Assembly: GCF_021531315.1 (NCBI RefSeq)
Contig: NZ_JAFBIQ010000005.1
Coordinates: 37,678 to 101,677 of the forward strand
Reading direction: 5' to 3'
Origin: Oscillibacter valericigenes
GTDB lineage: Bacteria; Bacillota; Clostridia; Oscillospirales; Oscillospiraceae
DNA length: 64,000 nucleotides
Shown one piece after another: positions 7,269 to 64,000 of this stretch; the stretch's first letter is position 1; the number at the start of each line of letters is the position of its first letter. A program made the translations under genes and the position numbers. Below the pieces are notes generated by a model that saw nothing but the letters and a program-made list of their open reading frames with translations, had not been told where the DNA came from and did not search any database.

Positions 7269-7299
7269 TAAAAAAGAAAATGGATAAGGTGATCGGATG

Positions 7300-7478
7300 A
7301 TGGGTCACGGGAGAGATCGCGGCGCTTGTGCCGCGGCGCCGAAGGGGAACGCAGAAGCTCTCAGGCGGAAGGACCGGACTCGGACGACACTCCGAAAAGT
7401 GCGGCTTGCCGCACGCCGAAGGTGCAACCTGTATGAGCGATATGCCGCATCAGGGAAACTCTCAGGTCATAAAACGGA
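7300..7478 (+). ncRNA. Glycine riboswitch, apparently tandem aptamers
   Basis: The leader of gcvT shows the glycine-aptamer core twice. The first copy runs from GGGAGAGATCGC through GCGCCGAAGGGGAACGCA to GCTCTCAGGCGGAAGGACC. The second contains GCACGCCGAAGGTGCAACC and ends ACTCTCAGGTCATAAAACGGA. The conserved GCCGAAGG and CTCTCAGG blocks are the evidence. It is followed at once by an intrinsic terminator, so glycine binding should allow readthrough into gcvT-H-PA-PB. Exact helix borders are approximate. Confidence 0.88.
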
Positions 7479-7514
7479 GGCACAAAGCTCAAAAGGGAGC
7501 TTTGTGCCTTTTTC
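7479..7514 (+). terminator. Riboswitch-controlled terminator before gcvT
   Basis: GGCACAAAGCTC / GAGCTTTGTGCC stem followed by TTTTTC. It starts right after the second aptamer, where the expression platform of a transcriptional glycine switch belongs. Confidence 0.85.
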
Positions 7515-55722: not shown

Positions 55723-55835
55723 ATGGGCTTTCAGGAAAATCTGATCCGTGCGCGCAAGCTGCGCGGCATGACGCAGGAGGAGCTGGCGGCGAAGCTGAAT
55801 ATTTCGCGGCAGGCGGTGAGCAAGTGGGAAACGGG
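55723..55835 (+). pseudogene. HTH membrane regulator gene, 5' part (split by the transposon)
   Basis: Starts MGFQENLIRARKLRGMTQEE and continues LAAKLNISRQAVSKWETG, an XRE helix-turn-helix, from the ATG at 55723 with AGGAGAACGG. The frame then runs into the transposon and stops at 55851 after VSQS. Its continuation ESLPDLYKLAALADELGV is at 63291. Joining base 55835 to 63291 gives 732 bases, an intact 243-residue reading frame. In the present arrangement only about 42 residues (HTH alone) can be made. Confidence 0.9.
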
Positions 55836-55911
55836 AGTTTCCCAAAGTTAAAGATACCACATCAATCCCACGCGGACTTTTGCTCAACCGATACAGCCGG
55901 AGGGCTGGATA

Positions 55912-55965
55912 ACAAGAAAAGGCGGTATGCGCCCCGTGGAGGGGTAGCGTACCGCCTTTTCTTGT
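55912..55965. repeat. Long hairpin near the left end of the transposon
   Basis: ACAAGAAAAGGCGGTATGC ... GCGTACCGCCTTTTCTTGT, about 19 paired bases extended by CCCC/GGGG near the loop. Smaller hairpins follow (GGGGGC-AAC-GCCCCC, ACTTTGC-GAA-GCAAAGT). Long reading frames on both strands from about 55850 to 56450 are probably non-coding. I see no gene in this 600-bp end. Confidence 0.6.
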
Positions 55966-56449
55966 GGGGGTTTCCAAAGGGGGCAACGCCCCCATTTGGC
56001 ACACGACTTTGCGAAGCAAAGTGTAGTGTGTTATACGCTCTGCCGGCGTTGCCGTGAAAATGCCGTTGCCGCCGGGGAGGGCAAGGGCATTTGAAGCGGC
56101 AGGAAAACAGGGCTGTGCTTGCGTGGCGTGGAGCCGCAAGCGCAGGTCTGGACTCATCAGCAGACAGGGCGTATATGAAAGCCCCAGTTCCTCGTCCTAC
56201 GCTCCAACTTGTGGACAAAGTGTCCCGAAGTTGTGGCCACACTCCCGGAAAAGTAGCAGGACAACGGGCAACCGTCAAGGCTGAAATGAACGGGTTTACA
56301 CCCGGCCTTGACCTCCGCCCGCTGTCCCGCTGGATGGGTGGACAAGGCGGCCAATCCCTCAAAGTGCTTGGCCGCTCTCTTTCTGATTTTGAGGTATTCA
56401 GTTTTTCAAAATTGAATAATCAAAATAAATTTTTTCGATTGAAAAAATT

Positions 56450-57316
56450 TTATTTGTTATCATCTTCAATGCCATATTTTTTCTTTTGCCGAATCACATA
56501 ATTACTGATTTTTTCATCATATAGTGGATACTGGTAATCCAACTGGCATGCCACTTCTGACGAAACCTCCCGGAACAATGCCATACATTGTTCAAAGGAT
56601 TCCCACATATGGGGATAGGAATCCATATTATAAGTGGACATAAGTCGTTCCCACAATTCCTCTGGGACATATTGCTTCATAAATTTATAGTTTTTTCCCA
56701 AACTGAAATGAAATCCCTGTTTGATACCAATCAGCCAGGAAATCATGCGAAGCAATTCTTTTCGTACTATATCATTCATATGGTCAATAGCAAAAAGAAT
56801 TTCTTTGCGGCATAAGCCCTTTACTACATATGTTGTAGTATTCCAAAATTCATTACAGCAATCGTCAAACATTCTTTGAGTAGGCTTCTGCAAGTGGTAG
56901 TCTATATCCGTTGGTATTGGCGGCTTTACGATACGGTTGTCTTTATCCAACAGTAACTTTACCAGTTTATCCCATGTAAAATACTCGTCTATCAGTTCCA
57001 GCGGCAGCAAAGTTAAATCTATCTTAACATCATCAGTAAACAGCATTAAATATGAAAATCCCTTTTCTACAGCTGGAAATAATTCCATATCTTCCGGCTT
57101 TTGCAGAATCAACCTTTCACCAAATATATCTAGCCATTTATCATCACTTGTGAAGCTGTCCATATCCGTAACAAAAAAAGTAATATCAAAATCCTGAAAA
57201 TCATCAGGCGGAATATTTGTATTTGTTCTAGATCCTTCCAAAGTAACCATGCGAATGCGTTTGTCTGTTTTTGCAAAATTCAAAACAATATCATAAACTT
57301 CCTTTTCTGATCTCAT
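56450..57316 (-). CDS. Aminoglycoside 6-nucleotidyltransferase, ANT(6)/AadE type
   Basis: 288 residues from the ATG at 57316 behind GGAGGAGAT. Streptomycin adenylyltransferase family: MRSEKEVYDIVLNFAKTDKR, TLEGSRTNTNIPPDDFQDFD (the GSRxN and D-x-D nucleotidyltransferase core), PEDMELFPAVEKGFSYLMLF, DVKIDLTLLPLELIDEYF, KGLCRKEILFAIDHMNDIVR and SLGKNYKFMKQYVPEELWER all match the ANT(6) enzymes. It should adenylylate streptomycin at the 6 position. Clear divergence from the common ANT(6)-Ia sequence suggests another member of the family. AT-rich relative to the chromosome, cargo of the transposon. Confidence 0.93.
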   Translation of the reverse strand: MRSEKEVYDIVLNFAKTDKRIRMVTLEGSRTNTNIPPDDFQDFDITFFVTDMDSFTSDDKWLDIFGERLILQKPEDMELFPAVEKGFSYLMLFTDDVKIDLTLLPLELIDEYFTWDKLVKLLLDKDNRIVKPPIPTDIDYHLQKPTQRMFDDCCNEFWNTTTYVVKGLCRKEILFAIDHMNDIVRKELLRMISWLIGIKQGFHFSLGKNYKFMKQYVPEELWERLMSTYNMDSYPHMWESFEQCMALFREVSSEVACQLDYQYPLYDEKISNYVIRQKKKYGIEDDNK

Positions 57317-57491
57317 TTTTATCTCCTCCAATTATTGAAATAGGTGTGAAGCCATTTTAGGGCTTTCCCGCCTTGATTACCCTTTAGCAAAGACGGGCGG
57401 GACTGTCAACGGCGGCGCATGAAATGCGCCGTTCATCTTGACCGTTGACTGGCTCGGCTGGCTTTGCTATCTTCCTGACAAATGGGAATGT

Positions 57492-58037
57492 CTAAGATAG
57501 TAAAGACGTCCCACATGCAACTCTTTCTTTTATTGCGGAAACCGTATCTTTAATTGTGAATGTAGTTGTGTCTATGACATTTGATTCATATACTCCCAAA
57601 CCGGAAAATTGCTCCCACATTGTTTCCACTAATTCAATATTTGTTTTTCTATCTAATTTTGAGCGTTCCACAGCTCGCTTCATAGTTTCTTTTTTACTCG
57701 CTCTTAATACAATATAGTGTACCTCGTAATCTTCTTGGGCAAGAGCTTTCCATGGCTCCAAAAACCATGGCCCGACAATCCCATCTACAATTACATCATA
57801 TCCGCCACGAGCATATCGCTTTGCAGCTTCTAAAAAGGCTTCAATGACAACCAGATTTTGCTCGTTGGATTCTGGCAAATGTGGTGGTATTGCGCCTTTG
57901 CTTAAGTAATGAAAAAAGTCATCGGTGTGCATATGCACTGATTTATCCATATCTAATTCCTTTGCGACAATTGACGCAGTTGTTGTTTTTCCTGTCCCCG
58001 GTGAGCCTGTAATCACAATAATTCTTCCTTGATTCAT
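57492..58037 (-). CDS. P-loop kinase-like protein (resistance cargo candidate)
   Basis: 181 residues. Walker A VITGSPGTGKTTTASIVAKE; an Asp-rich strand end HMHTDDFFHYLSKGAIPPH at the position where gluconate-kinase/chloramphenicol-phosphotransferase-like folds hold the catalytic acid; a lid-like segment RASKKETMKRAVERSKLDRK with paired basic residues. Such AAA_33/zeta-like small kinases are often found beside resistance genes. No substrate can be read from the sequence. It lies upstream of ANT(6) in the same orientation (175 bp apart), AT-rich like it, so they probably moved together. Confidence 0.75.
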   Translation of the reverse strand: MNQGRIIVITGSPGTGKTTTASIVAKELDMDKSVHMHTDDFFHYLSKGAIPPHLPESNEQNLVVIEAFLEAAKRYARGGYDVIVDGIVGPWFLEPWKALAQEDYEVHYIVLRASKKETMKRAVERSKLDRKTNIELVETMWEQFSGLGVYESNVIDTTTFTIKDTVSAIKERVACGTSLLS

Positions 58038-58065
58038 CTGTATTTTCCCTCACAATTCAAATTTA

Positions 58066-58869
58066 TCACTTTGTTCCTGCCTGCTCAATCATCTTCTTCG
58101 CAAACTGCTGGAACATTTCAACAGTTTCTTTATCCATCGGTGTAAGCTGTCCGATCTGTCCGGCAACCATCGCCGCTACATCGTCAATGGAAAGCGGGTT
58201 TTGCTTCTGTTCCGCCAATGCGTCCCGCATGGCTTGGAACATCGCGGCGGTCACAGCTTCTCCCGGCTGTTCCCCGTTGTCAATGTCTTTCTTAATATCC
58301 CGCAGGATAGCAAGGAACACATTTTTGATTTTCTCAATCTCCGCCTCATGTTCCCCCATCTTCTGGGCGTTCAAAAGCTGTAAATCCTGCTTTGCTTCCG
58401 CCCGGTGTTCCGGGTGTTCTTTCATCAGGTCGGACAGGGAAGCCGTTGCTATCTCGATAAGCTGGTTTCTTGCTGTTATGCCTTTTGCCGCTGTGTCCTG
58501 AAAATAAATCCGTATCAAATCTATCAGCTTAGGAAAATTCCTGTGTTCCAACAGGCGGTTGAGGATTTGCACATCAACAGCACCCGTCACGAGCCCCCTC
58601 ACGGCTCCCTCGGACAAGCCTAATTCAGAAATATCGTAGCTTTTACGGACGCTCACGGTGGATAAGCCCAGTATGTAGTCTGTCGATACCTTAAATTCCT
58701 TTGCCACGCCTATGAGAATATCACTGCTGACCGTTCTCGTTTCGCCGCTGACAATGCGGCTCAACTGGGAAGCGGAAACCCCTATCTTCTCCGCAAGTTC
58801 CTTTTGTGTGATGTGGTTCCCGTTGCATAAATCGGAAATCCGCTGTCCGGGTGTTCCGGGTAAAGCCAT
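58066..58869 (-). CDS. XRE-family regulator of the transposon
   Basis: 267 residues from the ATG at 58869 (GGAGGTGCG site). HTH (about 10-70): RISDLCNGNHITQKELAEKI, GVSASQLSRIVSGETR. The remaining 190 residues are helical and charged, with an ELGLSEGAVRGLVTGAVDVQ segment common to regulators of clostridial ICE and Tn elements. It is divergent from the rightward mobilisation genes; the 340-bp gap between them contains both promoters, so it likely represses one or both sides. Confidence 0.85.
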   Translation of the reverse strand: MALPGTPGQRISDLCNGNHITQKELAEKIGVSASQLSRIVSGETRTVSSDILIGVAKEFKVSTDYILGLSTVSVRKSYDISELGLSEGAVRGLVTGAVDVQILNRLLEHRNFPKLIDLIRIYFQDTAAKGITARNQLIEIATASLSDLMKEHPEHRAEAKQDLQLLNAQKMGEHEAEIEKIKNVFLAILRDIKKDIDNGEQPGEAVTAAMFQAMRDALAEQKQNPLSIDDVAAMVAGQIGQLTPMDKETVEMFQQFAKKMIEQAGTK

Positions 58870-59035
58870 AGATACGCACCTCCTCCGCATACTTCCATTA
58901 TACAGAATGATTGCAAAAATGCAAGTTCCAAAGTGTAAACTTCATCAAAATGCAATTCTCGCAAAATTCCGGGGATTGCATTTTTTTCGTGTAGACTTAG
59001 GGTAGTTCATCGATGGACAGCACCTTGAAAACAGA

Positions 59036-59218
59036 ATGACCGTCCGAAAAGGAATACCCCGGCTGGGGAAGCACCGCAAGGAACCGGACTTCGAGACAAA
59101 ATGTCCCGAAGCTGCGGGGAGCGTGCCAACGCCGGAACACGCCGCAGGAATGGGGCAGGAAACCTTTTCGGGGAGAACGGCAACGGAAAGCAAAATGGAG
59201 GGAACGCATGAGAGATAA
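59036..59218 (+). CDS. Doubtful small reading frame before the cysteine-rich protein
   Basis: 60 codons (MTVRKGIPRLGKHRKEPDFE onward), overlapping the next gene by 11 bases. No ribosome site. It could be a leader or non-coding. Listed because it fills most of an otherwise empty 340-bp gap inside the element, which also holds the motif ACCTTGAAAACAGAAT (59022-59037). Confidence 0.2.
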   Translation: MTVRKGIPRLGKHRKEPDFETKCPEAAGSVPTPEHAAGMGQETFSGRTATESKMEGTHER

Positions 59219-59621
59219 CCCCTATAAAGACTTGCCGCCACTGGAACGCAGGCCGGACGGTTCCCTTTACCGCATGACCCCGGCGCAGAGAAAACAGGCG
59301 GCCAGCCTGATACGCCGGGAGTGCTGTTGCTGTGAGGACGGCAACTGCATTGTCCTTGACGATGGGGACACCTGCACCTGTCCGCAGACGATTTCTTTCT
59401 CGGTCTGCTGTAAGTGGTTCCGCTGGGCGGTCTTGCCGCTGGACGGGACGCTGGAAGCGGAGATTTTCCGGGATAAGGACTTGAAACGCTGTGAGGTCTG
59501 CGGCGGTGTGTTCGTCCCCAAATCCAACCGGGCAAAATACTGCCCCGGCTGTGCCGCCAGAGTTCACAGGCGGCAGAAAACAGAAAGTGAACGGAAAAGG
59601 AGGTCTGCTGTGGACAGTTAG
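59208..59621 (+). CDS. Cysteine-rich VLP domain protein
   Basis: 137 residues from the ATG at 59208 (GGAGGGAACGC). RRECCCCEDGNCIVLDDGDT and CTCPQTISFSVCCKWFRWAV form a Cys-dense first part. The second part is a four-cysteine zinc ribbon (CEVCGGVFVPKSNRAKYCPGC), followed by a basic tail. The VLP motif is seen as WAVLPLDG. It is regularly found in the mobilisation region of Tn4451-like and ICE elements; no activity is known to me. Confidence 0.85.
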   Translation: MRDNPYKDLPPLERRPDGSLYRMTPAQRKQAASLIRRECCCCEDGNCIVLDDGDTCTCPQTISFSVCCKWFRWAVLPLDGTLEAEIFRDKDLKRCEVCGGVFVPKSNRAKYCPGCAARVHRRQKTESERKRRSAVDS

Positions 59622-59732
59622 GAGCGAAAAAAGCCTTGATTTATCAGGCTTCGCAAGCCCCAAACCGGGGCTGGTGGTATAAAGTATCGCCCGCCCCGGA
59701 AAACGGGCTTCTAACCGTCCACAAAACGCACT

Positions 59733-60128
59733 ATGACAAATACCATCTATATCCATCAGCCGGAAAAGGCGTTCAGCTTCACCCGGCTCCCGAATTTCCT
59801 CTTTGAAGCCCCCACATTCAAGCCCTTGTCCAACGAGGCAAAGGTTCTGTACGCCTTTATCCTGCGCCGGACAGAGTTATCCCGCAAGAATGGGTGGGCG
59901 GATGATTGCGGACGGATTTATCTGTACTATCCCATCTGCGAGGTGGTTGACCTGCTCCACTGTGGGCGGCAGAAAGCGGTAAACACCCTGCGGGAACTGC
60001 AATACGCCGGGCTGGTGGAGATCCAGAAGCAGGGCTGTGGAAAACCCAACCGCATTTTCCCAAAATCCTATGAAGCGGTTCCAAACACCGACTTCAAGAA
60101 ATCCGGTTCTGGTACGCCGGAGGGCTGA
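59733..60128 (+). CDS. RepA N-terminal domain protein (replication initiator A)
   Basis: 131 residues. FSFTRLPNFLFEAPTFKPLS followed by NEAKVLYAFILRRTELSRKN and YPICEVVDLLHCGRQKAVNT are the RepA_N winged helix. Only the N-terminal DNA-binding domain is present; plasmid initiators of this family are longer. It may bind near the transfer origin or allow brief replication of the circular form. Its stop is followed by about 180 bp with the oriT candidate. Confidence 0.88.
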   Translation: MTNTIYIHQPEKAFSFTRLPNFLFEAPTFKPLSNEAKVLYAFILRRTELSRKNGWADDCGRIYLYYPICEVVDLLHCGRQKAVNTLRELQYAGLVEIQKQGCGKPNRIFPKSYEAVPNTDFKKSGSGTPEG

Positions 60129-60226
60129 AAACCGTACTTATGAAGTGAGGAAATCACTCCCCGGAAGTACGAAAACCGGACGGTATATAGAAATACAAAG
60201 ATTAAAAAGATTTATTTATATTCTAT

Positions 60227-60298
60227 CCATTCCAATCCTATCCGAGCTAATTTCTGCGGGATTTTCCCTGTGGAAAACCCCGGATAGGAAAGGAATGG
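60227..60298 (+). other. Candidate transfer origin (nested inverted repeats before the relaxase)
   Basis: CCATTCCAATCCTATCCG (60227-60244) and CGGATAGGAAAGGAATGG (60281-60298) are inverted with 16 of 18 matches. Inside is a second pair, GGGATTTTCC / GGAAAACCCC. The structure ends 14 bases before the MobV start, where MobV origins usually lie. Confidence 0.6.
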
Positions 60299-60311
60299 GG
60301 AAAGGAGCAGA

Positions 60312-61256
60312 ATGGCACAACACGCAATTTTGCGGTTTGAGAAGCACAAGGGCAACCCGGCAAGGCCGCTGGAAGCCCATCACGAAAGACAGAAAGAACA
60401 ATACGCCAGCAACCCCGACATTGACACAAGCCGGAGCAAGTACAACTTTCATATCGTCAAGCCAGAGGGCAGGTACTATCATTTCATTCAAAACCGCATT
60501 GAACAGGCCGGGTGCCGAACCCGCAAGGACAGCACACGGTTTGTCGATACGCTGGTAACTGCCAGCCCGGAGTTTTTCAAGGGGAAATCCCCAAAGGAGA
60601 TACAGGCGTTTTTCCAGAGGGCGGCGGACTTCCTCATTGGCCGGGTAGGACGGGAAAATATCGTGTCGGCGGTGGTACACATGGACGAGAAAACGCCCCA
60701 CCTGCATTTGACCTTTGTTCCGCTGACAAAGGACAACCGCCTGTGTGCAAAGGAGATTATCGGCAACCGGGCAAACCTGACGAAGTGGCAGGACGATTTT
60801 CACGCCTATATGGTGGAGAAATATCCTGACTTGGAGCGTGGGGAGAGCGCCAGCAGGACAGGCCGGAAGCATATCCCCACCCGGCTTTTCAAACAGGCGG
60901 TTTCCCTCTCCCGGCAGGCAAGAGCCATTGAAGCCACACTGGACGGCATTAACCCGCTGAACGCCGGAAAGAAAAAAGAGGAAGCCCTCTCCATGCTGAA
61001 AAAGTGGTTCCCGCAGATGGAGAATTTCTCCGGGCAGTTGAAAAAGTACAAGGTCACAATCAATGACCTGCTGGCGGAGAATGAGAAGTTGGAAGCAAGG
61101 GCAAAGGCCAGCGAAAAAGGAAAGATGAAAGATACGATGGAACGGGCAAAGCTGAAAAGCGAACTGGACAATTTACAGCGGCTGGTTGACCGTATCCCGC
61201 CGGATATACTGGCGGAACTGAAACGTCAGCAGCGGCACACGGTAAAGGAAAGGTGA
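60312..61256 (+). CDS. MobV-family relaxase (Pre/Mob, TnpZ-like)
   Basis: 314 residues. The metal-binding three-His motif VVHMDEKTPHLHLTFVPLT is at about residues 118-136. The N-terminal motif HAILRFEKHKG and the R/N-rich AHHERQKEQYASNPDIDTSR region match the Pre/Mob group. The C-terminal third is a coiled coil (KYKVTINDLLAENEKLEARA). It nicks at the origin and leads single-stranded DNA to a helper conjugation machine. GGGGAAAGGAG ribosome site. Confidence 0.93.
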   Translation: MAQHAILRFEKHKGNPARPLEAHHERQKEQYASNPDIDTSRSKYNFHIVKPEGRYYHFIQNRIEQAGCRTRKDSTRFVDTLVTASPEFFKGKSPKEIQAFFQRAADFLIGRVGRENIVSAVVHMDEKTPHLHLTFVPLTKDNRLCAKEIIGNRANLTKWQDDFHAYMVEKYPDLERGESASRTGRKHIPTRLFKQAVSLSRQARAIEATLDGINPLNAGKKKEEALSMLKKWFPQMENFSGQLKKYKVTINDLLAENEKLEARAKASEKGKMKDTMERAKLKSELDNLQRLVDRIPPDILAELKRQQRHTVKER

Positions 61257-61328
61257 TAGATATAAGCAGAAATTTTCGCCGCCTCTGTGCGGCATTGTAC
61301 CTTGAAAACTGAATATGGAGGACACTGG

Positions 61329-61523
61329 ATGGCAAAAAGTGAAAGCGATATTTTTACACCCCGAACAGGGCAGGTTATACAAGCAGAGAACGGCACGCAG
61401 TATTTTGTATGTGGGAACAACCGTATAAAAATCTCCGAACACTTCGCCGCAGGCGGGAAGCCCCTCGGTGATCTGATTGTAGATGTGGTGCGGCATACCG
61501 CAGAAAAAGCCGCTTCAACCTGA
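61329..61523 (+). CDS. tnpW: Transposon protein TnpW
   Basis: 64 residues from the ATG at 61329 (GGAGGACAC). MAKSESDIFTPRTGQVIQAE and FVCGNNRIKISEHFAAGGKP are typical of the small TnpW proteins that accompany tnpX. Function is not established. The leader has ACCTTGAAAACTGAAT (61299-61314), a near copy of the motif at 59022-59037. Confidence 0.85.
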   Translation: MAKSESDIFTPRTGQVIQAENGTQYFVCGNNRIKISEHFAAGGKPLGDLIVDVVRHTAEKAAST

Positions 61524-61533
61524 TAGCCCATCA

Positions 61534-61594
61534 TTGATAACACGCCCACGCTTATGATATAATTGCCATAGAGCAAAAGTATTGTAAGCGTGGG
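61534..61594 (+). promoter_or_regulatory. tnpX promoter with 10-bp inverted repeat
   Basis: TTGATA (61534-61539), 18-bp spacer, TATAAT (61558-61563). CCCACGCTTA (61545-61554, in the spacer) and TAAGCGTGGG (61585-61594) are perfect inverted repeats on either side of the start site, fitting a repressor operator. Confidence 0.65.
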
Positions 61595-61622
61595 TTGTTT
61601 CTTTAGAAGGAGGATTTTTACG

Positions 61623-63245
61623 GTGAAACAACCTTACAATACTACGATTTACAACACGGCGCTTTATATGAGATTGAGCCGGGACGATGAACTGCAAGGA
61701 GAAAGCGGGAGTATTCAGACACAACGCATGATGCTCCGGCAATATGCCGCCGAGCATGGCCTGAATGTCATAGATGAATATATCGACGATGGATGGTCTG
61801 GAACGAACTTTGACAGGCCGGATTTTCAGAGAATGATTGATGACATTGAGGACGGGAAAATCAACTGCGTTGTTACGAAGGATTTATCCCGCTTAGGCAG
61901 AAACTACATTCTGACCGGCCAGTACACGGAAATCTACTTTCCCAGCAAAGGCGTCCGCTATATCGCTGTCAATGACAATGTGGACACCATCAACGGAGAG
62001 AATGAGCTTGCCCCATTCCTCAACATTCTGAATGAAATGCACGCCCGCCAGACCAGCAAAAAGGTAAAGGCGGCCATGCGGACACGGTTCGCAAATGGCG
62101 CACACTATGGAGCCTATGCTCCGCTTGGCTATGTCAAAGACCCAGATAAGAAAGGCCATCTTCTGATTGACCCGGAAACAAGGTGGATTATCGAAAAGAT
62201 TTTTGACCTTGCCGTTCATGGCCGGGGAGCCGCCAGCATTACACGGATTTTGGTCGAAGAAAAAGTACCTACTCCCGGCTGGCTGAATTTCCAGAGATAC
62301 GGCACTTTCGCAAATATCTATGCCGGAGCGCCGGAGGAAAAAGCCTATGCGTGGACGATAGCGCAGGTGAAAAGTATTCTGAAAGAGGAAACCTATATCG
62401 GACACAGCGTCCACAATAAGCAGACCAACATTTCATTCAAAAACAAGAAGAAAGTACGCAAGCCAAAAGAGGAATGGTATCGTGTGGAGAACACCCACGA
62501 AGCGATTATTTCCGAAGATGTGTTCCGTCAAGTACAGGAGCAGATTTGCAACAGGCGCAGACGGCAGAAGAACGGCACAACACAGATATTTTCCGGGCTG
62601 GTAAAATGTGCGGACTGCGGCTGGTCGCTGGCCTATGGTATGAACAGCCAGAACAAAAATCCCTATGCCCACTACCATTGTAGCAAGTACGGGCAAGGAT
62701 TGCACCAGTGTTCCATGCACTATATCCGCTATGATGTGCTTTACGCCTATGTCCTTTCCCGTCTGCAATACTGGTCTGTGCTGGCACAGCAGGATGGGGA
62801 CAAACTTCTGAAACGGCTACTTAACGCCAGCGACAAGGAACGCAATACTGCAAGGAAGCGGCAGACAGCCGAACTGAAAAAGGCGGAAAAGCGCAAAGCA
62901 GAAGTAGACACCCTGTTTGCAAAAATGTATGAGGACTGGTCTGCCGGACGCATTACAGAATACAATTTCAATATGCTGTCCGAAAAGTATCAGGGCGAAC
63001 AGCGAGAATTGGACGTAAAAATTGAACGGCTTCACGAAGCGATGGAGACCGCCGCCCAGACAGCGGTTGACGCTGAAAAGTGGATAGGTCTGATGAAACA
63101 GTATGTCAATCCCACAGAATTGACGGCTGAACTTCTGAATACGCTGATTGAAAAAATCCTTGTCCATGAAGCGGTCAAAAGTGAGGACGGAAGCCGGGAA
63201 CAGGAAGTGGAAATCTTCTACCGCTTTATCGGCAAAATCGAATGA
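61623..63245 (+). CDS. tnpX: Large serine recombinase, TnpX type
   Basis: 540 residues from the GTG at 61623 (GGAGGATTTTTACG). Resolvase domain (about 10-165): catalytic Ser in YMRLSRDDELQGESGSIQTQ, GWSGTNFDRPDFQRMIDDI, CVVTKDLSRLGRNYILTGQY. Then a recombinase domain (about 170-290, GAYAPLGYVKDPDKKGHLLI), a zinc ribbon (CADCGWSLAYG, then CSKYG and CSMHYI) and a coiled coil (about 380-470, RKRQTAELKKAEKRKAEVDT). It catalyses excision and insertion at short direct repeats, without host factors in relatives. It is the last gene before the right end. Confidence 0.95.
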   Translation: MKQPYNTTIYNTALYMRLSRDDELQGESGSIQTQRMMLRQYAAEHGLNVIDEYIDDGWSGTNFDRPDFQRMIDDIEDGKINCVVTKDLSRLGRNYILTGQYTEIYFPSKGVRYIAVNDNVDTINGENELAPFLNILNEMHARQTSKKVKAAMRTRFANGAHYGAYAPLGYVKDPDKKGHLLIDPETRWIIEKIFDLAVHGRGAASITRILVEEKVPTPGWLNFQRYGTFANIYAGAPEEKAYAWTIAQVKSILKEETYIGHSVHNKQTNISFKNKKKVRKPKEEWYRVENTHEAIISEDVFRQVQEQICNRRRRQKNGTTQIFSGLVKCADCGWSLAYGMNSQNKNPYAHYHCSKYGQGLHQCSMHYIRYDVLYAYVLSRLQYWSVLAQQDGDKLLKRLLNASDKERNTARKRQTAELKKAEKRKAEVDTLFAKMYEDWSAGRITEYNFNMLSEKYQGEQRELDVKIERLHEAMETAAQTAVDAEKWIGLMKQYVNPTELTAELLNTLIEKILVHEAVKSEDGSREQEVEIFYRFIGKIE

Positions 63246-63290
63246 CACATCTTGAGATACCCAACAATATCTTTAACTAAGGGAAACGGG

Positions 63291-63909
63291 GGAGTCTCTC
63301 CCCGATCTCTATAAGCTCGCGGCGCTCGCCGACGAGTTGGGCGTGAGTACGGACGAGCTCTGCGGCCGCGAAGCGGCTTTATGCGGCGAGGTACCTGCGA
63401 CAGCTTCGGCGGAGGAGGCTGCCGGGCGAGAAGCCTTTGCGGAGGAGATTCGGAGAATCGCAAAGCAAAACAGACTTCTGCGCTATGTGGCAGGCATACT
63501 GATGCTGATTTGCGGCGTGCTGACCATGCTGTCGGGGTACTGTACACTCCAAAACAGCGAGGCGCCGAGCGGCGGAATAACGGCGCCGGCGCCCCTGCCG
63601 GATACGATCGTCATCAGCGGTCTGACGCTCGACATCGATGGTATCGCGTTGGTATTCCGTTTCGTCCCCAGCGTCAGCGGCGAGGGCTACGAGTGGTCGG
63701 CAAGCTGCGCGCCGGACAACAACGGCCTGACCTCCGTTGAAACGACGACGGACGGCGGCATCTGCACCGTGCGGCTTTTGAATGTTTCGCGGTACGACGG
63801 CGTTACGCTTTCCGCCACCGTGACGAACGGGACGGAGAGCCGCAGCATCTGCCTTGCCACAGACATCTGTTTCCGGGATAACACAGTGACCTGGAGTTCA
63901 GAGGTGTAA
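63291..63909 (+). pseudogene. HTH membrane regulator gene, 3' part (split by the transposon)
   Basis: Continuation of the gene begun at 55723: ESLPDLYKLAALADELGVST completes the HTH domain, then a linker (REAFAEEIRRIAKQNRLLR), one membrane helix (YVAGILMLICGVLTMLSGYC) and an outer domain of about 115 residues (VISGLTLDIDGIALVFRF, CTVRLLNVSRYDGVTLSATV) with an Ig-like look. The first codons lack a ribosome site, so this half is probably silent unless read through from the element. The whole gene would encode a membrane-bound one-component regulator. Confidence 0.85.
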
Positions 63910-64000
63910 CGCCCCACGGCTGAACAATGTTCGCGTCGGGCGTAACTAACCGCCAGACGTCGGGAGTTTGCAGCCAAAAATAGTCGGAAAAGAAAAAGCC
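63910..64000. other. No feature seen at the right edge
   Basis: The last 91 bases after the split gene show no gene or clear hairpin. Confidence 0.4.

Follow-up and report, generated by a model that had tools for sequence, protein, structure and literature searches.

A predicted mobilizable resistance transposon that occupies one conserved glycine codon in many different XRE-type regulator genes

In Streptococcus suis, the aminoglycoside-resistance gene ant(6)-Ia has been reported on an integrative and mobilizable element (IME) lying inside one helix-turn-helix (HTH) regulator gene of the XRE type, with related serine integrases at intergenic sites (PMC7168690, 2019). Among large serine recombinases (LSRs), a multi-targeting group rich in the DUF4368 domain has also been defined, and its behaviour was explained by relaxed specificity or by sequences present at several sites (PMC10083194); neither 'XRE' nor 'helix-turn-helix' occurs in the main text of that paper. 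A precedent for family-wide targeting is IME_Rho_tet, described as an IME of gut Bacillota that enters divergent members of one small gene family, MAFF2 (PMC12904643). Here we analyse a stretch of 64,000 nucleotides from Oscillibacter valericigenes (contig NZ_JAFBIQ010000005.1, positions 37,678 to 101,677; hereafter the window), in which a mobile element splits an XRE-type regulator gene within the Gly codon of a SKWETG motif. Together with its relatives in other hosts, this locus leads us to a reading that we hold to be very probable, namely that the element is a mobilizable resistance transposon whose LSR recognises the DNA of this codon motif (AAR-TGG-GAR-NNN-GG) in XRE genes.

The interrupted gene can be followed on both sides of the element. 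Its left open reading frame (ORF) starts at the ATG at 55723 and reaches the junction without a stop, and the right piece continues uninterrupted from the same Gly codon as far as the stop at 63909. Read separately, the pieces add up to 113 + 619 = 732 bases, or 243 residues plus a stop, in agreement with the joined frame proposed in a preliminary description of this DNA. The 5' part matches Pfam HTH_3 with an E value of 1.1e-12 (3.3e-12 for its last 37 codons). When the 700 bases to the right of the element were used as a DNA query against 18 genomes of the genus, the window's own among them, the regulator gene was found in 1 of the 17 others (G011, a long match at 89% identity), where it is intact. 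The left and right flanks, aligned separately to G011 at 88-89% identity, meet on one contig at 1959-1968, where they overlap by exactly 10 bases, GGGAAACGGG, at the junction; the uninterrupted ORF encodes 244 amino acids. The split of an HTH-membrane regulator gene by a transposon, as seen in the preliminary description, is confirmed, and the element in question has a serine recombinase and a relaxase. That description had named two refuting outcomes, homologues that fail to align across the junction and the lack of an empty-site allele in any related strain. Neither appeared, as the G011 homologue aligns straight through and G011 carries an empty-site allele, albeit as a relative of the same genus and not as another strain of the same species. 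Upstream the two loci diverge, G011 having ~1.3 kb more than the window between a transporter gene and the regulator.

Related elements were then compared by their insertion sites, using 80 LSR-bearing contigs of named genomes, the best 80 of 293 confirmed. The right end is present in 79 of these 80, L083 being without one, and four contigs (L007, L011, L040 and L061) stop at the junction, leaving 75 readable right flanks. Classed by eye as XRE or not, 71 of the 75 lead into the latter half of an XRE-type HTH gene; 68 of them are in frame, one is shifted by a single base (L043) and two are inverted (L064, L065). At the right junction of L043 one extra base past the core puts the XRE half out of frame, which reflects either a sequencing slip or imprecise joining. 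On the left, 27 of 28 copies, window included, end at the W-E-x-G of an XRE gene; 21 read exactly SKWExG and the others LNW, SRW (2), NKW, AKW or SNW in place of SKW. All 27 of these 37-codon left halves match Pfam HTH_3, with W, E and G invariant, and the remaining copy, L006, is intergenic, yet has AATGGGAAAGGGG at its junction. For comparison, among 200,000 random positions of the same loci W[DE]xG was met 11 times (0.006%) and GxxxP[DENS] 140 times (0.07%). Two genomes each hold copies in two different XRE genes, GAM79 (L045, L052) and RGIG1839 (L079, L080). In a second sample, made up of 10 loci from IMG/VR and four opened records out of 26 matching ones in a plasmid collection, 9 of 13 readable copies lie in XRE genes (L155, L156, L157, L159, L160, L162, L164, L166 and L167), and L161 is without a flank. 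In the Pusillibacter faecalis record, the supplied annotation itself lists, next to the element, one piece as an HTH regulator and another as XRE. A search of E. coli genomes gave no match. The element on L020, a Dechloromonas sp. contig with a coverage of 1.4 in its title, was kept in the counts, and this contig is probably a contaminant.

The genes entered in this way differ widely. Before the right-arm profile and the clustering, L083, L007, L011, L040, L061, L006, L035, L043, L063, L064, L065 and L072 were dropped. The 69 right fragments fall into 54 clusters at 50% local identity over at least half of the shorter fragment, and into 62 at 50% when identity is taken over the longer fragment, a measure that overstates diversity where a contig cuts the gene short. 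Among 39 right fragments, window included, whose LSRs are at least 98% identical, there are 32 clusters.

The elements themselves are nearly uniform. The window's copy is bounded by a 20-bp terminal inverted repeat that is 90% complementary (GTTTCCCAAAGTTAAAGATA and TATCTTTAACTAAGGGAAAC), and ten full-length copies, this one included, show 0-63 mismatches over 7,453 bp in pairwise comparison. Six are mutually identical, in L006 (Dialister), L008 (Lapidilactobacillus), L011 (Mediterraneibacter), L013 (Acetivibrio), L017 (a Lachnospiraceae metagenome-assembled genome) and L074 (Clostridium porci); from these L012 differs at 2 positions, L016 (S. suis) at 3, L018 at 23 and the window at 40. Identical or near-identical elements thus span Negativicutes, Bacilli and Clostridia. 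The identical elements of L008, L013, L017 and L074 lie in XRE genes and that of L006 is intergenic, and the sites of L011 are unreadable because this 7,457-base contig of Mediterraneibacter catenae is exactly the element plus GG on each side, as would be expected were the assembly interrupted at this point by several insertion sites or by a circle. Between the window and L016 there are 43 differences, 41 of them in 58162-59240, which covers the element's own HTH gene and an adjoining stretch; this cluster (region 57955-59240) probably marks a patch acquired by recombination, the rest of the element being nearly identical.

The probable point of crossover can be narrowed to two bases. Each of the 29 copies read at both ends has its left-end dinucleotide repeated at the right end, GG in 28 and CC in the inverted L064, and in XRE insertions this GG forms the first two bases of the Gly codon. 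The base before the core at the left end and the base after it at the right end differ between hosts, in keeping with positions that lie beyond the 2-bp core of a serine recombinase, and the element's own base before the right-end core is G in 70 of 80. Orientation is nearly constant, 69 of 71 XRE cases running in the same direction. The exceptions, L064 and L065, both from Faecalibacterium, are inverted relative to the gene and have CC at both ends (L064) or at the one end read (L065). At its centre L064 reads TCCC, which is the usual four-base GGGA reverse-complemented, and this natural exception supports both the core assignment and the rule that the core sets the orientation. The 10-bp repeat GGGAAACGGG noted in the preliminary description is indeed present, at 55826-55835 and 63281-63290. 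We rejected it as the true attachment repeat, as it is host-specific beyond GG: in the right copy GGGAAACG belongs to the end of the element, and the left copy consists of host codons. The repeat is largely a coincidence of the window's host, and only GG behaves as a core shared across copies.

Beyond the core, the left arm of the target has the invariant bases TGGGA at -9 to -5 in 28 of 28 copies, L006 included, which in the gene are Trp and the first two bases of Glu. Such a word is kept in XRE genes across species, since Trp is encoded by a single codon and two bases are fixed in the codons for Glu and in those for Gly; the protein alone may impose the invariant bases, and the recombinase may contact them. 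A strict form of the word, AARTGGGARNNNGG-N10-CCNGAY, occurs 26 times in 20 related genomes (in 13 of the 20) and its reversed pattern not at all, and 26 of 26 occurrences encode the KWExG site of an XRE gene. LSR relatives were found in 89 of 291 genomes of the class. More distant LSRs are also found in XRE genes, both in genomes (L125, L126 and L128, at 65-73% identity) and in the viral collection (L159 at 66%, L160 at 62%). For 24 LSRs of at most 43% identity, inspection by eye revealed no XRE half within 420 bases past the recombinase, a distance at which ends further away could be missed; we did not score as XRE a single weak GxxxPN match in L134, which runs into a stop. With XRE sites recurring at 62-73% LSR identity and none seen at 43% or less, the trait seems to belong to a single clade, which has its own exceptions, rather than to DUF4368 recombinases in general.

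A number of observations weigh against targeting this strict. Among the 75 readable contigs, three (L006, L063 and L072) lie outside XRE genes and a fourth, L035, is unclear, and in the second sample 4 of 13 viral or plasmid copies lie outside them, L154 (with an LSR of 100% identity), L158, L163 (41%) and L165. Of the more distant LSRs, L158 (69%) is not in an XRE gene, judging from the sequence 3' of the LSR gene, and an XRE half is absent from the stretch examined at L127 (66%) and at L129 (58%). The 80 right ends, window included, comprise 77 GG, 2 CC and the AG of L033, and the right end of L157 is an Asp codon, GAT, hence a GA core; L033 and L157 are exceptions in their core, both still within XRE genes. 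Seven of the 20 related genomes are without the strict word. In 59 genomes, 477 occurrences of a looser word, TGGGAR-NNN-GG-N10-CC, compare with 251 of its reversed control; this word is unspecific, so that more than its bases must matter, and it was dropped for counting landing sites as too noisy. The right half of the target is scarcely conserved beyond what the protein requires: the CC at +11/+12 (Pro), invariant in the 69 right arms judged XRE, is so in part through the selection of rows already judged XRE, and recombinase contacts cannot be separated here from protein constraint because the protein alone may impose these bases. Lower cut-offs, finally, reduce the right fragments to 36 clusters at 40% and 14 at 30% identity, where most of the 69 fall in one cluster, as is expected because members of the superfamily share the HTH.

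Some of these points bear on a different explanation, in which the LSR has relaxed, low-information specificity and XRE genes are seen as abundant and dispensable, through selection and not through targeting. The copies outside recognisable XRE genes with close relatives of the element (L006, L063, L072, L154 and L165) would fit it, as would the published description of multi-targeting LSRs as relaxed (PMC10083194, PMC13137831). Dispensability would, however, spread insertions along genes, whereas insertion was found at one codon and, in 69 of 71 XRE cases, in one orientation, and the half-motifs occur at 0.006% and 0.07% of random positions; we find this explanation very unlikely.

Under recognition of the codon motif by the LSR, a simple course of events can be proposed. 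The excised circle would carry the attachment site TATCTTTAACTAAGGGAAAC-G-GG-A-GTTTCCCAAAGTTAAAGATA, which is nearly palindromic about its GG, and the recombinase would cut at GG and join the circle to the GG of the Gly codon. An asymmetric core would set the orientation, so that the recombinase gene is co-directional with the host gene except where the core of the element is CC. At the left end of XRE insertions, the host frame reads Gly, four residues such as VSQS and a stop in 27 of 27, a uniform entry that arises because the target fixes the reading frame; at the right end, in 80 of 80, the phase of the gene is closed by a stop no more than seven codons ahead of the core. Insertion would stop translation inside the HTH domain (GVSQS-stop in the window) and inactivate the regulator. 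Precise excision at the GG core would restore the regulator and its frame exactly, as the preliminary description had argued.

That description went further and regarded the element as a dedicated reversible switch of the one regulator, with excision turning the gene on in some cells or conditions. Systems of this kind exist, for example the prophage-like elements of comK and sigK, whose excision turns the gene on, and the possible restoration of the 243-residue frame and the intact allele in the genus would suit one. Where its flanks can be read, however, the same element is found in other XRE genes of other hosts or, in L006, between genes, and scatter over many genes argues against a dedicated switch. 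Rather than one gene occupied across strains, we found different genes in different hosts and one intact homologue in the genus; with the gene in 1 of 17 other genus genomes by DNA search, no conserved arrangement of element in gene was seen. No circle junction was found in 391 genomes of the class or in viral contigs, an absence that does not exclude excision, and the presence of ANT(6) and MobV speaks for a mobile resistance element. The dedicated switch was accordingly rejected as the principal interpretation, and we give it very little credence. Switching is possible in principle for any precisely excising element, and nothing favours it for the regulator of the window. For a broader proposition the case seems to us evenly balanced: that the recombinase clade has a protein-motif landing site, the SKWExG codons of XRE HTH domains, and that each transfer reversibly knocks out a different regulator and so rewires the host.

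The gene content of the element (Table 1) agrees with a mobile resistance element of this kind. It encodes its own recombinase, the LSR, whose DUF4368 domain (PF14287) was matched at E 4.6e-23, and its own relaxase, MobV; among the eight element proteins scanned, MobV alone had a match to a conjugation family, and there is scant space for another within 7.45 kb. Judging from these genes, the element is a predicted mobilizable transposon with a predicted aminoglycoside-resistance gene, and MobV would permit its transfer by way of a helper conjugative element. The small ORF 5' of the recombinase might, as a guess, encode an accessory factor, and the P-loop NTPase gene lies near ANT(6). The preliminary description called the element Tn4451-like, which holds in the broad sense of an LSR accompanied by a Mob protein and fails at the core, since that of TnpX is GA and GG was found here at both ends. 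It could still be argued that this is a mobilizable transposon of the Tn4451/TnpX type with unremarkable targeting, having in common with that type the LSR, the Mob protein, resistance cargo and a 2-bp core (PMC3158075). We consider this very improbable, both for the GG core and for a target that is a recurrent codon motif.

Table 1 Features of the interrupted regulator gene and of the inserted element (positions in the window)
Feature	Position	Strand	Remarks
Regulator gene, 5' part (XRE/HTH_3)	55723..55835	+	HTH_3; ends ...AVSKWET + GG of Gly codon; empty site in G011
Inferred 2-bp crossover core GG, left copy (attL)	55834..55835	.	same dinucleotide at both ends
Mobile element	55836..63288	.	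7,453 bp without GG cores; same length and ends in 9 other contigs
Left terminal inverted repeat GTTTCCCAAAGTTAAAGATA	55837..55856	+	host-frame reading GVSQS-stop
Cargo aminoglycoside 6-adenylyltransferase ANT(6), aadE type	56450..57331	-	NCBIfam ANT_6, 456 bits (cut-off 420)
Cargo small P-loop NTPase/kinase	57492..58037	-	AAA_18; chloramphenicol-phosphotransferase-like (CPT) and zeta-like matches
Element's own HTH_3 regulator	58066..58890	-	family match
Cys_rich_VLP protein	59208..59621	+	family match
RepA_N domain protein	59733..60128	+	family match
MobV-family relaxase (Mob_Pre)	60312..61256	+	family match
Small ORF 5' of recombinase	61287..61523	+	without family match
Large serine recombinase (LSR)	61623..63245	+	Pfam Resolvase, Recombinase, Zn_ribbon_recom, DUF4368; possible ORF start 61590
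Right terminal inverted repeat TATCTTTAACTAAGGGAAAC	63268..63287	+	TAA in phase of the regulator gene's 3' part
Inferred 2-bp crossover core GG, right copy (attR)	63289..63290	.	same dinucleotide at both ends
Regulator gene, 3' part (G-ESLPDLYKL...)	63289..63909	+	206 residues from Gly; one hydrophobic stretch, C-terminal domain; G011 homologue

Two further observations concern the window outside the element. A sequence of about 64 bases that follows the regulator gene (63924-63990) has further copies at five places elsewhere in its genome and at two in G011, and judged from locus lengths those five lie ~10 bases from a contig end, as does the window's copy; this sequence is a dispersed repeat that breaks the assembly, and it has no match in Rfam. 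At 7298-7479 lies a tandem pair of glycine riboswitch aptamers.

If recognition of the codon motif is correct, the recombinase reads a DNA word that is held constant by a protein family, and the XRE superfamily, which is very widespread in bacteria, becomes a set of landing sites independent of species. How a multi-targeting serine recombinase combines promiscuity in genes with precision in sequence would then be explained, as would the occurrence of a near-identical resistance element in Clostridia, Bacilli and Negativicutes, and the landing place of such an element in a new host could be predicted. It would also describe a natural system in which the loss of a regulator is coupled with the gain of a resistance gene. 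The attachment-site model is offered for one clade of DUF4368 recombinases.

As regards known systems, in the literature searched, with subscription papers, preprints and supplements lying outside the search, no statement was found that the many targets of such enzymes are one XRE codon motif. The multi-targeting DUF4368 clade (PMC10083194) is alike in its DUF4368 domain and in the use of many target-gene clusters, which close relatives of the window's LSR were found here to enter. One enzyme described elsewhere, MTI_1737, has a GG core and 17 attB sites with A/G-rich 5' and C-rich 3' sides, and is present as two copies in one Amedibacterium genome (PMC13137831). These features resemble the target profile found here, a likeness drawn from the description of the sites and not from the LSR sequence, and MTI_1737 may belong to the clade of the window's LSR; the same paper regards MTIs as most likely highly relaxed in specificity, and 'XRE' is absent from its main text. 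Tn4451 and Tn6104, with a TnpX-like LSR, share with the element an LSR, a mobilisation gene, accessory cargo and a 2-bp target, and differ in carrying other cargo and in that no targeting of an XRE motif is described in the accessible text (PMC3158075). IME_Rho_tet is similar in having its 3' boundary close behind the LSR and in its 21-bp terminal inverted repeats, and differs in its MAFF2 target and its tet(W)/tet(32) cargo, XRE and HTH being absent from the main text (PMC12904643). The S. suis IME, as reported, shares the serine integrase, the ant(6)-Ia cargo and a site in an HTH-XRE gene and is clear prior art for one case (PMC7168690); S. suis contig L016 carries the window's element type, with those 43 mismatches over 7,453 bp. 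Earlier work had thus described both an ant(6)-Ia element within a single HTH-XRE gene of S. suis and multi-targeting DUF4368 LSRs (PMC10083194). Whereas the S. suis report describes one specificity in one species, the present comparison finds a codon motif, entered in many XRE genes and in several classes of Bacillota, and adds to that account the core, the orientation rule and the in-frame stops.

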